A stretch of DNA of 37,629 bases from Cyclobacteriaceae bacterium. Its GTDB lineage: Bacteria; Bacteroidota; Bacteroidia; Cytophagales; Cyclobacteriaceae. The stretch lies in NCBI GenBank assembly GCA_016787625.1, contig JAEUUD010000011.1, positions 1 through 37,629 of the forward strand, in the 5' to 3' direction. Numbering within the stretch: position 1 is the stretch's first letter; every line of letters begins with the position of its first letter. Made by a program: the position numbers and the translations under genes. A model generated the notes under the pieces. The model worked only from the letters and a program-made list of their open reading frames with translations, made no database searches and was not told the origin of the DNA. Shown here in pieces: positions 31,338 to 36,620 of the stretch.

Positions 31338-32444
31338 CTACACTTTGACGTCTGACTGATTCATGACACTGGTTTGAACCTGGATCGACTCATGATGGAT
31401 CAGCCTTAGCAAGTCCTTCATGAATTCCTCATCCAGTCCCATCGCCTTGCCCAGCGCAACGCGCGTCTGAATAATCTCTTCCCATCGACTCACCTGGAGG
31501 ATGGTAACATGATTGTCCTTCTTGTATTGACCAATCTGTTTTGAGATCTTCATTCGGTTGGCCATCTTCTGCATGATCTCATCGTCAATATGGTCGATCT
31601 GCTCGCGAAGTATGCCCAGGGTATCCTTGAATTTTTTATCTGCAGATGTCACCGTCCTCACCACCAGGCCATCGACAATGTTAGCCAAAGCTGCCGGCGT
31701 CACCTGCTGTTTTGCGTCGCTCCATGCGGCATCGGGATTGAGATGACTCTCAATCATCAGCCCCGACATATCGAGGTCGAGCGCTTTCTGAGCGACCATG
31801 GCAATCAACTCACGATTGCCAGAAATGTGACTTGGGTCACAAAAAAGTTCAAGGGCAGGTACACGTGTCTTCAATTCAATCGCCAAATCCCACATGGGTG
31901 CATTGCGGAAGGGTCCTTTCTCAAAAGAAGAGAACCCACGATGAATGGCTGCCAGGCGTTTGATACCCGCCCGCTCCACACGCTCGAGGGCTCCTATCCA
32001 GAGATCGATGTCCGGGTTTACCGGATTCTTCACCATCACGGGAATGTCAACACCTTTCAATGCGTCAGCAATCTCCTGAACAGAGAATGGATTGACCGTC
32101 GTGCGGGCGCCAATCCAAAGAATGTCAACTCCAGCCTTGAGACATGCCTCAACATGCGCGGCCGTAGCGACTTCCGTTGAAATTGGCAGGCCAGTTTCAT
32201 TTTTCGCCTGAGCCAGCCAATTCAGGCCCTCCTGCCCTGCGCCCTCAAATTGTCCAGGTCGCGTACGAGGCTTCCAGATTCCTGCACGAAGGGCGTGGAC
32301 TTTCCCGGTGGCAGCAAGCAGCTTCGCCGTGGTGAGCATTTGATTCTCTGTCTCCGCACTGCAAGGACCGCTGATGATAAACGGTCTTGTGGCTCCAAAC
32401 GTCCCGGCAATGGTTTGCGGTTGGTTGTCAGTCATTGGTTTCAT
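31338..32444 (-). CDS. Bifunctional DAHP synthase / chorismate mutase
   Basis: This 368-residue fusion joins 3-deoxy-7-phosphoheptulonate synthase (type I beta, about 1-265) to an AroQ-type chorismate mutase (about 275-355). The synthase part shows FIISGPCSAE, RAGIWKPRTRPGQFEG, NPVNPD, IHRGFSSFEKGPFRNAPMWDL and CDPSHISGNRE; the mutase part shows LREQIDHIDDEIMQKMANRMKI and IGQYKKDN. It thus catalyses the first step of the shikimate pathway and the chorismate-to-prephenate step. As the last gene of the pheA-led operon its start overlaps the tyrA stop by four bases (ATGA). Fused mutase often confers feedback inhibition by prephenate (known for related enzymes, inferred here). Confidence 0.95.
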   Translation of the reverse strand: MKPMTDNQPQTIAGTFGATRPFIISGPCSAETENQMLTTAKLLAATGKVHALRAGIWKPRTRPGQFEGAGQEGLNWLAQAKNETGLPISTEVATAAHVEACLKAGVDILWIGARTTVNPFSVQEIADALKGVDIPVMVKNPVNPDIDLWIGALERVERAGIKRLAAIHRGFSSFEKGPFRNAPMWDLAIELKTRVPALELFCDPSHISGNRELIAMVAQKALDLDMSGLMIESHLNPDAAWSDAKQQVTPAALANIVDGLVVRTVTSADKKFKDTLGILREQIDHIDDEIMQKMANRMKISKQIGQYKKDNHVTILQVSRWEEIIQTRVALGKAMGLDEEFMKDLLRLIHHESIQVQTSVMNQSDVKV

Positions 32445-33322
32445 AGTGAATGCTCTTGAAAAGTTGGCGTAATACTTTTGGCAGGGTCCAATACACGTCG
32501 AATCGTGTTTGCTTCCTGCAATACGCGATAGAGTTCCCTGGTGTTTCGCTTCATCAATTGGTAGTGAAATCGCTGTAAATGCATAATGTATTCCGCTAAA
32601 GCCTGACCAAGATACTCTGCATTTTGTTCAAAAATGGGGGCCCACATTTCAGGGGAGCTCTTGGCTAATCTCACTGTGGAGGCAAAGCCGCTTCCAGCGA
32701 GGTTGAAAATGTTTTTCTCGTCTTTCTCAATGTCCAGAACCGTTTGACCCAACAAAAACGAACTCACATGAGAAAGATGGGACACGTAAGCGACGTGCCT
32801 GTCATGGTCGTCAGGTTCCATAAAGATTGTCTGAAGGCCCAGGATTGAAAAGACTTTTTGAGCTACCATGATGGCGTCCGGGCTTGAGCGATCGCGCTCA
32901 CAGACAATGTTGACTTTCCCACGAAAAAGACCAGTACATGCGGCGGCGGGTCCGGAATTTTCAGTACCGGCCAATGGATGAGCAGCAACGTATTGACTTC
33001 TTCTGGGATGTATGGCTACCTCTTTGCATATCGCTGCCTTGGTCGAGCCAAAATCAATCACTACTGCACCCGGCTTCATCACATCAAGTATTTGAGGCAG
33101 CATGGCCCTGATGGAGTGGACCGGGATAGCAAGCAAAATGACATCTGCATCTGAAAGCGTTTCTCCTTCAGGCCTCAGGTCATCGACCAATCCAAGTTGG
33201 AGGGCCAATGTTCCATGCTCCGGTTTGAAGTCGACGCCGGTGCGGCGGATTCCCGGTTCATTTTTCAGGTCAAGACCGGCACACCCGCCGATAAGACCAA
33301 GTCCTACGATGGTCACGTTCAT
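32441..33322 (-). CDS. tyrA: Prephenate dehydrogenase
   Basis: The enzyme oxidatively decarboxylates prephenate to 4-hydroxyphenylpyruvate for tyrosine. The 293-residue protein has the NAD-binding motif TIVGLGLIGG (residues 4-13), VIDFGSTKAAI, AAHPLAGTENSGP and the YVSHLSHVSSFLL stretch holding the family's catalytic His. There is no fused mutase or ACT domain; the mutase is on the DAHP synthase. Starts and stops overlap neighbours by ATGA on both sides (33319-33322 and 32441-32444), indicating tight translational coupling. Confidence 0.94.
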   Translation of the reverse strand: MNVTIVGLGLIGGCAGLDLKNEPGIRRTGVDFKPEHGTLALQLGLVDDLRPEGETLSDADVILLAIPVHSIRAMLPQILDVMKPGAVVIDFGSTKAAICKEVAIHPRRSQYVAAHPLAGTENSGPAAACTGLFRGKVNIVCERDRSSPDAIMVAQKVFSILGLQTIFMEPDDHDRHVAYVSHLSHVSSFLLGQTVLDIEKDEKNIFNLAGSGFASTVRLAKSSPEMWAPIFEQNAEYLGQALAEYIMHLQRFHYQLMKRNTRELYRVLQEANTIRRVLDPAKSITPTFQEHSL

Positions 33323-34515
33323 GCGACAGTCATTTTATTTACCGGAACAACATTTTGCAACTTCCACCCCTCTATCCGGCTCAAGGCCTCTCTCAATAAT
33401 TCCTCTGAAGCGCAAAGGGATATTCTCACATATCGTTTGCCTTCCTTTCCAAATACAAAACCAGGCGTGATAAAAACCCTTGCCTCATACAAGAGACGAT
33501 CTACCCAGGTTTCCACATCATCCACATGATCCGCGACTTTTGCCCACACAAATAGGCCACTTTGCTGCACGGCATAGGCACAATCCAGGGCATCAAGAAT
33601 GCGCAGGGCCAATAACTTTCTTCTTCTGTAAGTAGCATTGAGGTTTTTGTTCCAAAGGTCATCTGACTTCAGCGCTTCAACTGCCGCTTGCTGAAGTCCA
33701 AGAAACATGCCTGAGTCCATATTGCTTTTTACTTTGAGCACCGCTTCAATATGATGTCGGCCTCCGGCCACCCAGCCAATTCGCCATCCGGCCATATTAT
33801 GCGATTTGCTTAATGAGTTCAGTTCCATGGCCACGTCAACGGCACCGTTGCAGCTTAGGATGCTCAAGGGTGTATCATTCAATATCAGGCTATAAGGGTT
33901 GTCATTCACAATAAGGAATTCATTTTCCCTGGCCAGGTCTACCAAGGCCTGGAGTTCATCCCCTGACGCCACGCGGCCCGTGGGCATATGGGGAAAATTC
34001 ACCCACATGATCTTCACCCTGGATAAATCCTGTTGCGAAAGCGAGTCGATATCGATTCCCCAACCTTGTGACTCTTTCATGGAATATGGTCTCACCATTC
34101 CACCCGCCAATTTTGTTGCCGATGCATAGGTTGGATAACCCGGATCCGGAACAAGTGCTTCGTCACCGTCATTGAGAAAGGCCATGGAAATGTGCATGAT
34201 GCCTTCCTTTGAACCCATCAAAGGAAGTATCATCGACTCAGGGTCAAGGGTCACGTTGTAAACACGCTCGTACTGGTCCGCAATGGATTTTCGCAACGAA
34301 GGAATTCCCTTGTAGCTCTGGTAGCCATGGCTTCCCTTTTGTTCTGCAACCTGAACGAGTGCCCGGATCGTCTTGTCCGTTGGTGGCAAATCGGGACTTC
34401 CAATCCCCAAATTGATCACAGGATCCTCTGGCTTGTCAAGTGCACGGACCTCAGCGAGCTTCTTGCTGAAGTAGTATTCTTCAATATCTGCGATACGGGA
34501 TGCTGTCTTAATCAT
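33319..34515 (-). CDS. Class I/II aminotransferase, probably aromatic
   Basis: This 398-residue PLP-dependent aminotransferase probably performs the last step to phenylalanine and tyrosine, judged by its place between pheA and tyrA. PLP-binding Lys237 lies in SLSKSHNMAGWRIGW; GIGSPDLPP, GYQSYKGIPSLR, DPGYPTY and the C-terminal YVRISLCAS are family marks. The motif usually written N-P-T-G with a cofactor-contacting Asn reads HMPTG (176-180), so that Asn is Met. LL-diaminopimelate aminotransferase is a sequence-similar alternative that operon context makes less likely. A gap of 4 bases separates it from pheA. Confidence 0.9.
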   Translation of the reverse strand: MIKTASRIADIEEYYFSKKLAEVRALDKPEDPVINLGIGSPDLPPTDKTIRALVQVAEQKGSHGYQSYKGIPSLRKSIADQYERVYNVTLDPESMILPLMGSKEGIMHISMAFLNDGDEALVPDPGYPTYASATKLAGGMVRPYSMKESQGWGIDIDSLSQQDLSRVKIMWVNFPHMPTGRVASGDELQALVDLARENEFLIVNDNPYSLILNDTPLSILSCNGAVDVAMELNSLSKSHNMAGWRIGWVAGGRHHIEAVLKVKSNMDSGMFLGLQQAAVEALKSDDLWNKNLNATYRRRKLLALRILDALDCAYAVQQSGLFVWAKVADHVDDVETWVDRLLYEARVFITPGFVFGKEGKRYVRISLCASEELLREALSRIEGWKLQNVVPVNKMTVA

Positions 34516-34519
34516 GGCA

Positions 34520-35413
34520 TTAAAATTTTATCTCTCCTTTTTTGTATTCACCCAGGATGTTCATGTTTCTTGTATGCCGCATGACGTCTTGCATGGCTTT
34601 ATTGTAATCCTCCCTCACCGTCCATTCGACATCAACATGGATGGAGTATTCCCACGGCCGGCCAAGAATAGGAATCGATTGAATCTTGGTCAGATTGATG
34701 GAATGCTTTTTGAAGATCATAAGCACATCGGCAAGGCTGCCAGCCTGGTTGGTCACTTCAAATGACAGGGATGCCTTGTTGCTGTCTGCACCCACACCTG
34801 GGGTCTTTGATAGAATCAGGAATCGTGTGAAATTCTTCTTGTTTGTTTCAATGCGCTTCTCAAGAATAAGAAGACCATACTTTTCCGCGGCTCGATCATT
34901 GGCAATCGCGGCCACATCCCTTAAGCCCAACTGACTGATTCTTCTTGCCGAAAGGGCCGTGTCATCGCTTTCGCGGATGGACACCGTATCTCCAAACTGA
35001 TGAAGAAAGTCCGTGCATTGACGGATTGCCATAGGATGCGATTCAACTGTGCGGATGTCACGGATGGCGACGCCTGGCAACGCCATCAGGTGAAGGTGGA
35101 TGGGCAGGTAGAGCTCGCCCACAATGAAGAAGTGATACTGCTGGAGCAGGAAGTAGTTGGGGAGGATGCTCCCAGCAATGGAATTCTCTATGGCCATCAC
35201 ACCGAATGATGCCCGACTTGTTTTGACGGCTTCACACAACGCATGGAAGGTCATGCATTCAATCGTCTCAACACTGTTCCCAAAGTAGGCACGTGCGGCT
35301 TCTTCGTGAAAACTTGCTGAAATGCCCTGAATGGCCACAGGAGCCAGGTCAGCACGGTCAGGCAGCACTTCAATCATTTGTTGTTCAGTTGTCTTCATTA
35401 CCTGTTCAGTCAT
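34520..35413 (-). CDS. pheA: Prephenate dehydratase with ACT domain
   Basis: The enzyme converts prephenate to phenylpyruvate. The 297-residue protein has a PDT domain (about 26-202) with VAIQGISASFHEEAA, GVMAIENSIAGS, ESHPMAIRQC and the catalytic TRF at 196-198, and an ACT domain (about 215-290) with GSLADVL (225-231) and LTKIQSIP (241-248). The phenylalanine-binding ESRP motif of canonical PheA is QSIP here. It is the first gene of the operon. The ATG at 35413 lies 5 bases after the attenuator hairpin; in-frame ATGs at 35398 and 35377 are alternatives that leave the conserved start of the fold intact. It has no fused chorismate mutase. Confidence 0.94.
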   Translation of the reverse strand: MTEQVMKTTEQQMIEVLPDRADLAPVAIQGISASFHEEAARAYFGNSVETIECMTFHALCEAVKTSRASFGVMAIENSIAGSILPNYFLLQQYHFFIVGELYLPIHLHLMALPGVAIRDIRTVESHPMAIRQCTDFLHQFGDTVSIRESDDTALSARRISQLGLRDVAAIANDRAAEKYGLLILEKRIETNKKNFTRFLILSKTPGVGADSNKASLSFEVTNQAGSLADVLMIFKKHSINLTKIQSIPILGRPWEYSIHVDVEWTVREDYNKAMQDVMRHTRNMNILGEYKKGEIKF

Positions 35414-35418
35414 AAAAT

Positions 35419-35447
35419 AAAAAGTCCCGCTTTCGGCGGGACTTTTT
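35419..35447 (-). terminator. Intrinsic terminator acting as attenuator ahead of pheA
   Basis: On the minus strand AAAAAGTCCCGC, loop CGAAA, and GCGGGACTTTTT form a perfect 12-pair stem (7 GC-rich pairs plus 5 A-T) ending in a T-run. It ends 5 bases before the pheA ATG and lies downstream of a Phe/Tyr-rich leader frame, the classic position of an attenuator. It is symmetric and would also work on the plus strand, but nothing is transcribed toward it from that side. Confidence 0.92.
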
Positions 35448-35479
35448 GGAGTGTCTTGTTACGATTTTATTTAACAATA

Positions 35480-35548
35480 CTACATTCCATGAAGTCCCTC
35501 CTGGCCTCTGAAAGAATAGTAGTAGAAATAAAATCGGTTCGCGTTCAT
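35480..35548 (-). CDS. Phe/Tyr-rich leader peptide of the aromatic operon attenuator
   Basis: A 22-codon frame (ATG at 35548, TAG at 35480-35482) upstream of pheA. Codons 6-13 read F-Y-F-Y-Y-Y-S-F, seven aromatics in eight codons, matching the end products of the downstream operon. Codons 16-19 contain the antiterminator strand described separately. The peptide itself is presumably a by-product: ribosome stalling at uncharged tRNA-Phe or tRNA-Tyr is the signal. It is too short for standard ORF calling. I see no unambiguous promoter upstream; transcription must begin somewhere above 35548. Confidence 0.85.
   Translation of the reverse strand: MNANRFYFYYYSFRGQEGLHGM
35492..35501 (-). promoter_or_regulatory. 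Antiterminator strand inside the leader frame
   Basis: On the minus strand GGAGGGACTT copies the terminator 3' arm (GCGGGACTT) with one difference. Its GGGACTT can pair with AAGTCCC (35438-35444) of the terminator 5' arm, with two further G-C pairs past a mismatch. It spans leader codons 16-19: free when a ribosome stalls at codons 6-11, mostly covered when the ribosome reaches the stop codon. Confidence 0.75.
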
Positions 35549-35682: not shown

Positions 35683-36120
35683 ATGAGAGCGTACATCGTT
35701 GCCATTGCGGCCCTATTGATATTTGGAGGCTGCGGAAAGTCCACCACTGACCATGACCACGATGGTTCAACAGCCGACTCAACGGACGCCAACAGAATAT
35801 TGTATGATCAGGTCATGGACATCCATGATCAGGTGATGCCGAAAATGCAGGACATATATAACCTGAAGAAAAAGCTTCAGGATCAGATTGCTGCCACTCC
35901 GAACATGGTGGTTGAAGAACGGCAAAAACTTGAGCGACGGATCGCTGCACTCGATTCGGCAGACAAGATGATGATGGAATGGATGCACAAATTTTCGCCC
36001 CTACCCGATTCTGCCGGACGCGAGGCGGCACGCGAGTATCTTGAATCTGAAATGGAAAGCATCAAGAAAGTCAGGGATGCCATGCTGGAAGCCATCCAGC
36101 GAGAGCAGGGTTCAAACTAG
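35683..36120 (+). CDS. Small lipoprotein with a coiled-coil region
   Basis: This 145-residue protein has a lipoprotein signal peptide with lipobox LIFGGC (Cys17). After a short acidic/His spacer (DHDHDGST), the rest is helical and heptad-like: YDQVMDIHDQVMPKMQDIYNL, KKKLQDQIA, then ERQKLERRIAALDSADKMMMEWMHKF and a C-terminal helix. Similar small proteins in Bacteroidota are often given uninformative names such as viral A-type inclusion protein. It is likely anchored in an envelope membrane; the partner and role are unknown. Its stop overlaps the convergent SET gene by four bases. Confidence 0.8.
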   Translation: MRAYIVAIAALLIFGGCGKSTTDHDHDGSTADSTDANRILYDQVMDIHDQVMPKMQDIYNLKKKLQDQIAATPNMVVEERQKLERRIAALDSADKMMMEWMHKFSPLPDSAGREAAREYLESEMESIKKVRDAMLEAIQREQGSN

Positions 36121-36620
36121 TCCAAATGCGGGTGAGCCACCCGCTTGGGTATTTTGTGATGGGGTAGGTGCTTGCCGTTAGCTTTTGTAGTTCTGGCCTT
36201 ACGTTGCTCTTCCCTGATGTTGTAGCGTATTGCCTGCCAGTACTCCCTGCCGTAATCAACAAAGATCTCTGACCTGGCGGGAATGTCCCGGATTGCCTCG
36301 ATGAAGCACCTTTTACCCGACGTGACATAGTCTGCATTGTTTCTGATGCCCTTTACCTTGACAATGCCCATGGCATCATTGGCAAAATGAGCCACTGACT
36401 TTGTTGTCTTCCATGCATCAATCACATGTTTAAGATTAAAGTAGAAGACATACCCGTTGCGTTCATCGGGCATCTTTTCTACCTCCTTCCAGGTCAGGAT
36501 TTCTCCCTTGTATTCAACAATACGTGTCCCTTTCGGAATCAGCACTTTAGTGAACAAGCCTTTCCCTGCACCGGGCAGCAATGACTTTCTTACGTACAGA
36601 TGTTTCTCCAGCAGCGCCAT
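36117..36620 (-). CDS. SET domain-containing protein (putative protein lysine methyltransferase)
   Basis: At 167 residues this is a minimal SET domain with a basic tail. Seen: GAGKGLFTKVLIPKGTRIVEYKGE (17-40), a motif in the place of the cofactor-binding RFxNHxC..N stretch that reads AHFANDA then GIRNNADY (77-98), and SEIFVDYGREYW (117-128), including the active-site Tyr region. Bacterial SET proteins methylate lysines on proteins; the substrate here is unknown. The last 35 residues are Lys/Arg/His-rich and may bind nucleic acid or an acidic partner. It is downstream of leuA on the same strand, with a possible own -7 region TACCTTGC at 36637-36644. Confidence 0.88.
   Translation of the reverse strand: MALLEKHLYVRKSLLPGAGKGLFTKVLIPKGTRIVEYKGEILTWKEVEKMPDERNGYVFYFNLKHVIDAWKTTKSVAHFANDAMGIVKVKGIRNNADYVTSGKRCFIEAIRDIPARSEIFVDYGREYWQAIRYNIREEQRKARTTKANGKHLPHHKIPKRVAHPHLD

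Follow-up and report, generated by a model that had tools for sequence, protein, structure and literature searches.

A candidate ribosome-mediated attenuator reading phenylalanine and tyrosine codons at the head of the aromatic pheA cluster in a member of the Cyclobacteriaceae and its relatives

Introduction

Control of biosynthetic operons by attenuation, in which a leader peptide rich in the end product of the operon is translated, is classic, and in its ribosome-mediated form it requires that translation keeps pace with transcription. The leader pheL of Escherichia coli is rich in Phe and is not known to hold a Tyr run. Leaders that read several end products of a shared pathway are known from the branched-chain ilv operons, where several amino acids are represented in one leader; the leader presented here likewise covers several end products, although pathway and amino acids differ.

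From the Bacteroidota, a structured and conserved 5' element upstream of pheA was reported for Flavobacterium psychrophilum and other Flavobacteriaceae, along with clues to leader-peptide attenuation at amino-acid operons, those elements being without an Rfam match (PMC9723704). Gene name and phylum are shared with our leader; codon content, antiterminator and occurrence in other families are not described in the main-text passages on that element. A predicted attenuator, taken from the Merino website, is given in Table 7 of PMC1173090 for the cluster pheA > hisHb > aroAIbeta-aroQ > tyrA of B. thetaiotaomicron, which is similar to the one studied here; the entry describes neither a leader peptide nor a sensed amino acid. 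Short ORFs resembling leader peptides are mentioned in PMC7366714, the main text of which does not contain the word pheA, PMC4833913 cites a comparative study by Lopatovskaya and others (2010), and the authors of PMC2965389 (2010) wrote that, before their own case in Firmicutes and apart from ermC, leader-peptide systems were known to them from Proteobacteria and Actinobacteria only.

A literature search of titles and abstract openings, with supplements and most subscription papers outside its scope, found no description of a combined Phe/Tyr leader in Bacteroidota. Composite specificity, covariation, a spacing rule, tandem copies and a link to DAHP synthase (DAHPS) were likewise not found described by this search or in the parts of PMC9723704, PMC1173090 and PMC7366714 that bear on the subject, which is no proof of absence. 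The initial annotation had called such leaders little described in Bacteroidota, which is fair, although the field is not empty, given the pheA element (PMC9723704) and the predicted attenuator (PMC1173090). The type of attenuation is known; its composite specificity and class-wide architecture look new.

In the present study a leader region upstream of pheA was analyzed in a stretch of 37,629 nt of contig JAEUUD010000011.1 from a Cyclobacteriaceae bacterium, hereafter the window. Judged from the sequence, the region is very probably (roughly nine chances in ten) a ribosome-mediated transcription attenuator of the trp/phe/his type, which would sense charged tRNA-Phe and tRNA-Tyr together.

Materials and Methods

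PheA searches gave matches in 47 of 58 whole genomes, of which the best 30 were used as loci (L001-L030); the named loci are the best 80 of 83 PheA matches. For a second sample, 148 genomes were picked evenly across the phylum; a prephenate dehydratase is present in 128, of which 70 were examined, namely every one of the 32 matched genomes that share the class or a lower rank with the window's genome (itself excepted) and 38 others. Promoters were sought within 130 nt upstream of the leader with the consensus of the Bacteroidota type, TTG, a spacer of 18-23 and TAnnTTTG.

Segment A, the putative antiterminator strand, was placed solely by its pairing with the terminator and the aromatic run solely by its codons. 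Spacing was evaluated in 55 of 66 non-redundant leaders, i.e., those in which a terminator was detected (59 leaders) and the helix scored 14 or more. From the swap test, in which own and foreign pairing partners are compared, nine loci were left out beforehand as having no convincing leader directly before the terminator (L053, L054, L055, L084, L086, L089, L097, L103, L104), as were near-duplicates and loci lacking a detected terminator. A MAFFT alignment of 37 sequences (A1) served for reading conservation only; by eye, the terminator arms were out of register in several rows, so pairs were counted by the own-versus-other pairing tests instead.

Results and Discussion

The leader region in the window

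Leader frame and terminator (Table 1) sit in an intergenic region of 269 nt, with pheA on one side and a divergent gene (35683-36120) on the other. The initial annotation had described a frame of 22 codons with seven Phe/Tyr in codons 6-13, a terminator of 12 pairs and the downstream order pheA, aminotransferase, tyrA and DAHP synthase/chorismate mutase (DAHPS/CM), and each of these was recovered, the gene identities by Pfam. To this we add GGGACTT, a mimic of the terminator 3' arm inside the leader frame. This segment A is complementary to segment C in the terminator 5' arm and starts 14 nt past the first base of the last aromatic codon; its position inside the leader frame is what attenuation requires. 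Neighbouring genes of the cluster are at most 4 nt apart or overlap, so that all four likely share one transcript.

Table 1. Positions of the candidate attenuator elements and of the downstream genes in the window.
Feature	Position	Strand	Evidence or remark
Leader ORF, MNANRFYFYYYSFRGQEGLHGM	35480..35548	-	22 codons + stop; conserved in relatives
Control codons 6-13, F Y F Y Y Y S F	35510..35533	-	7 of 8 F/Y
Putative protector stem, 5' arm CGAUUUUAUUU, at leader start	35526..35536	-	MFE fold and own-versus-other pairing test
Putative antiterminator segment A, GGGACUU	35492..35498	-	Mimics terminator 3' arm; within leader frame
Putative protector stem, 3' arm AAAUAAAAUCG	35462..35472	-	MFE fold; here 3' of leader stop
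Intrinsic terminator	35419..35447	-	12 bp, 5-nt loop CGAAA, U-rich tail
Segment C, AAGUCCC, in terminator 5' arm	35438..35444	-	Alternative partner of A
pheA, prephenate dehydratase (PDT + ACT)	34520..35413	-	Pfam
Aminotransferase class I/II	33319..34515	-	Pfam
tyrA, prephenate dehydrogenase (PDH_N + PDH_C)	32441..33322	-	Pfam
DAHP synthase fused to chorismate mutase type II (DAHP_synth_1 + CM_2)	31338..32444	-	Pfam

When the intergenic region was shuffled 5000 times with its dinucleotides preserved, no frame with at least seven Phe/Tyr in eight codons arose, and no second ATG frame of up to 45 codons reaching six of eight F/Y/W was found in the window on either strand. The fold of the 157-nt leader was equalled by none of 200 shuffles (z -4.4) and contains both structures, the long stem CGAUUUUAUUU/AAAUAAAAUCG and the terminator. 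That the hairpin is the terminator of the neighbouring upstream gene was rejected, since this neighbour lies on the plus strand.

In its Phe-rich leader peptide, terminator, alternative pairing and downstream prephenate dehydratase gene the region resembles pheL-pheA of E. coli (RF01859, Phe_leader). Unlike pheL, the leaders studied here combine Phe with Tyr and sometimes Trp, and they precede a cluster for both products together with DAHP synthase. A search with the families of Rfam 15 gave no match at gathering threshold anywhere in the window; the Phe_leader model spans the leader with 21.8 bits, below its cut-off of 55, and Trp_leader (RF00513) reached 20.2 bits with a cut-off of 41, so membership in both was rejected.

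Conservation among relatives

The leader, taken as at least six F/Y/W in eight codons, was present upstream of pheA in 29 of the 30 best whole-genome loci, the window included; in the thirtieth (L030) the aromatic run is present and the frame continues into the terminator. Among the named loci with at least 290 nt upstream it was found in 60 of 76 (from the best 80 of 83 matches), counts which ignore kinship and come from sets that partly overlap (L001-L030 with L031-L049); the 16 loci without it include three that hold DAHPS in the cluster (L053, L058, L085). When the best 80 of 83 named loci were scanned on both strands (1.67 Mb in all), 60 frames of at least six of eight lay in pheA upstream regions versus 14 elsewhere. 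In the second sample a leader of at least five of eight stood at pheA in 28 of the 32 genomes of the same class and, within 400 nt of the PDT match, in none of the 38 genomes outside it. The regions of 1.0-1.5 kb fetched for these 38 held two weak frames of five of eight (L120, L178); both are over 1.1 kb upstream of the PDT match and were not counted as leaders.

The comparison of relatives proposed in the initial annotation bears its interpretation out: although the sequence drifts, the frame, its aromatic codons and the terminator persist, and the pairing between antiterminator and terminator shows covariation. As far as sequence can tell, the same switch, its base pairs changed yet still matching, precedes these genes in most relatives examined. 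A search for a His leader in the window's own genome (approximately 84% complete; five His in a row) gave five places, two of them overlapping, and none of the four distinct ones was convincing.

Codon content and the sensed amino acids

Both Phe and Tyr occur in all 66 non-redundant leaders (292 F and 220 Y in total), and the mixed codons, which the initial annotation had seen as fitting an operon with two products, go with DAHP synthase clusters. Sensing of Phe alone, with the Tyr codons as passengers, would agree with the surplus of F over Y. It is nevertheless unlikely, considering that no leader does without Tyr, that both residues are found among the last three aromatic codons in 43 of 55 leaders, and that the leaders found before a pheA standing alone are dominated by F (6 Y versus 32 F in eight hand-picked segments). 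Combined reading of Phe and Tyr is thus retained, and the leader is most likely a starvation sensor for these two amino acids.

Trp is absent from the window's own leader. A single W lies in the run of 25 of the 66 non-redundant leaders if W is counted as aromatic, and strictly inside the run of 13 of 64 leaders if selection is by F/Y only; by script it appeared in 10 of the 30 best whole-genome loci (same genus), in L023 only through an extended TTG start. In counts that ignore kinship, W makes up 13 of 73 interior residues other than F/Y versus approximately 0.5% W in PheA frames, Gly (19) and Asn (15) both being commoner in this position. Leaders with W would read Trp as well. In three loci where the aminotransferase is divergent from pheA (L089, L106, L107), leaders like MKNNFFINFIIIFIYELS have many Phe and Ile codons and a single Tyr, and may be a version for Phe only or for Phe/Ile.

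Link to the gene content of the cluster

Presence of the leader follows the cluster: as scripted, it was found in 76 of 81 loci with DAHPS/CM downstream of pheA versus 3 of 18 loci without, a count from which 13 loci near contig ends were dropped and in which the genus g24 was entered as leaderless; two of the DAHPS loci (L153, L163) were scored leaderless through a misplaced internal ATG, so that 78 of 81 is nearer the truth. In g24, which belongs to the same family, pheA is without a leader in both genomes (G131, G166). Here the order is DAHPS/CM-aroB-aroA-pheA-aminotransferase-tyrA on one strand with short gaps (L214/L226 and L217/L227, respectively), aroB encoding 3-dehydroquinate synthase and aroA EPSP synthase. 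DAHPS/CM is preceded in both genomes by the leader MLITAAIYFTFFYFYFRSQSRIGAVYCLAKN or a near copy and a terminator of 13 bp; so although a different gene now comes first, the cluster is still headed by the switch. A second DAHPS/CM lies further upstream in G166, without such a leader.

In two genomes of the family f24 (G069 L216, G150 L215) DAHPS/CM is located elsewhere in the genome and preceded by frames ending in YRFYYWYC and YYRFYWYC; a terminator was not found after these frames, which are possibly decayed or different leaders. Two aromatic leader frames in series before pheA were observed in six loci, of which L105 and L151 have by scan a terminator for each, and L091, L100, L101 and L145 one or none.

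Promoter matches, terminators and the distance to pheA

A promoter of full score was found upstream of 21 of 65 leaders and in none of 65 shuffled regions. The objection, raised in the initial annotation, of a transcription start that excludes the frame is not borne out in these relatives; the window's own match is weak (7 of 9, shuffles averaging 6.9) and decides nothing.

Terminators were found in 84 of the 100 loci whose candidate frame has four or more of eight, and were not found for 7 of the 66 non-redundant leaders, by a scan which demanded a U-rich tail and overlooked a clear hairpin in L012. From the terminator to the most upstream in-frame ATG of pheA the median gap is 22 nt; in the window it is 5 nt, and one clade has 75-78 nt. 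Translational control, instead of or besides attenuation, in which the hairpin would mainly hide the pheA start region and be opened by the ribosome on the leader, draws on the short gaps, as in the window and in 23 of the 81 loci with an in-frame ATG after the terminator, where the gap is 15 nt or less. Set against this are the wide variation of the gap, which makes hiding of the start unlikely at 75-78 nt, and the U-rich tails typical of intrinsic terminators, a weak point, as the scan required such tails. As the principal mechanism we hold it to be improbable, to much the same degree as sensing of Phe alone or slightly more so; since short gaps would permit hiding of the start in part of the family, an added effect on pheA translation is possible there. 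Transcription attenuation remains the preferred reading in what follows.

Antiterminator and terminator pairing

The terminator 5' arm varies between groups and segment A varies along with it, as in the pairs CGGGACTT/AAGTCCCG, GGGGGATT/AATCCCCC, CGGGGCTT/AAGCCCCG, GCCCGGGA/TCCCGGGC and CGAGGCTTT/AAAGCCTCG. Complementarity of A and C was significant against dinucleotide shuffles (p<=0.05) in 71 of 84 loci and missed this level in 13. In the swap test with 61 non-redundant loci, the own terminator arm scored 18.8 versus 14.3 for foreign arms, and the observed mean was reached in 0 of 5000 permutations; the leader 5' part scored 18.7 with its own tail versus 15.3 with foreign ones (likewise 0 of 5000). 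Judged by these pairings, leader and terminator coevolve.

The second of these results also bears on nascent-peptide arrest of the SecM/TnaC kind, in which the aromatic peptide itself would stall the ribosome in response to the free amino acid. Some clades do share the peptide motifs RFYF and GLxRES. These are explicable by RNA pairing, the shared tail having bases able to pair with the leader start: given the own-versus-other pairing of leader 5' part and tail, the frequent Arg (CGA) before the run and the RESLC/RESVC tails seen in many relatives seem to be partners in RNA pairing and not traits of the peptide. As, moreover, peptides diverge widely between groups while their F/Y content is constant, and codon content tracks gene content, peptide arrest appears very unlikely. 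A chance low-complexity frame beside an unrelated bidirectional terminator is ruled out for practical purposes by the shuffles, the conservation, the covariation and a neighbour that is divergent and not convergent.

Spacing between control run and antiterminator

In 48 of 55 leaders the distance between the final aromatic codon and segment A, counted from that codon's first base to the start of A, is 10-16 nt (median 13); among shuffled regions whose helix scores comparably, 15% show this. The position of A has a standard deviation of 2.2 nt relative to the run versus 10.3 nt relative to the stop codon, so that the control run is its anchor. From toeprints in E. coli, a ribosome with the last aromatic codon in its A site covers approximately 12 nt past the first base of this codon and would therefore leave A just free; the spacing fits what is expected for the leading edge of a stalled ribosome.

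In nascent folds up to the terminator loop, A:C pairing was predicted for 54 of 55 leaders with the ribosome at the last aromatic codon, for 52 of 55 with the ribosome at the first, and for 43 of 55, the window included, with no ribosome at all; the 0 of 55 obtained with the ribosome at the stop codon is no evidence, since this state hides all upstream sequence by construction. Termination in the absence of translation is usual in trp-type attenuators. In contrast to the textbook trp leader, where the untranslated leader terminates, such termination is not predicted by the nascent folds for most leaders studied here, and this stands beside the support that the long protector stem received in the swap test. 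A ribosome waiting at the stop codon would no longer cover A in the many relatives where A precedes this codon by 19-30 nt; in these, success of the terminator would depend on timing or on the local hairpins observed.

Proposed mechanism and its reach

The interpretation as an attenuator is supported by conserved frame and codons, by the terminator and its covarying pairing with A, by the fixed distance from run to A, and by the link with the gene cluster. Transcription in the window would begin upstream of the leader, and a ribosome translating the leader would follow the RNA polymerase closely. With Phe or Tyr in short supply, the uncharged state of either tRNA in the cell would slow this ribosome within the aromatic run, its leading edge just before A; A (GGGACUU) would be free to pair with the emerging C (AAGUCCC), no terminator would form, and pheA, the aminotransferase gene, tyrA and DAHPS/CM would be transcribed. 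With Phe and Tyr plentiful, the ribosome would pass over A, C would join the 3' arm of the terminator, and transcription would halt before pheA, with expression of the cluster reduced as the presumed effect.

A wider reading, towards which we lean by a modest balance, is that of a class-wide attenuator of the aromatic family, in which one OR-sensor would read charged tRNA-Phe and tRNA-Tyr, joined by tRNA-Trp in a fifth to more than a third of the non-redundant leaders, and would head a cluster holding the first enzyme of the whole aromatic pathway. Its codons would be retuned to gene content, it would move to a new first gene where the order changes, and in some lineages two leaders would be stacked. 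If this were true, the conserved spacing from run to antiterminator would mean that the polymerase and the ribosome travel close together in this class, and a class-wide switch with the spacing of a ribosome footprint would offer a direct test of transcription-translation coupling in Bacteroidota. The leaders would also provide a natural series for how control codons follow operon content, from mostly Phe to Phe and Tyr to Phe, Tyr and Trp, single or in tandem, and before pheA or DAHP synthase.

Neighbouring genes

The divergent gene on the plus strand has by eye a lipoprotein-like start and no Pfam match. Among the 19 closest named loci (L031-L049), 18 have it in this divergent position upstream of pheA as well, the exception being L035. 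Beyond it, 36117-36620 on the minus strand encodes a small SET-domain protein (PF00856).
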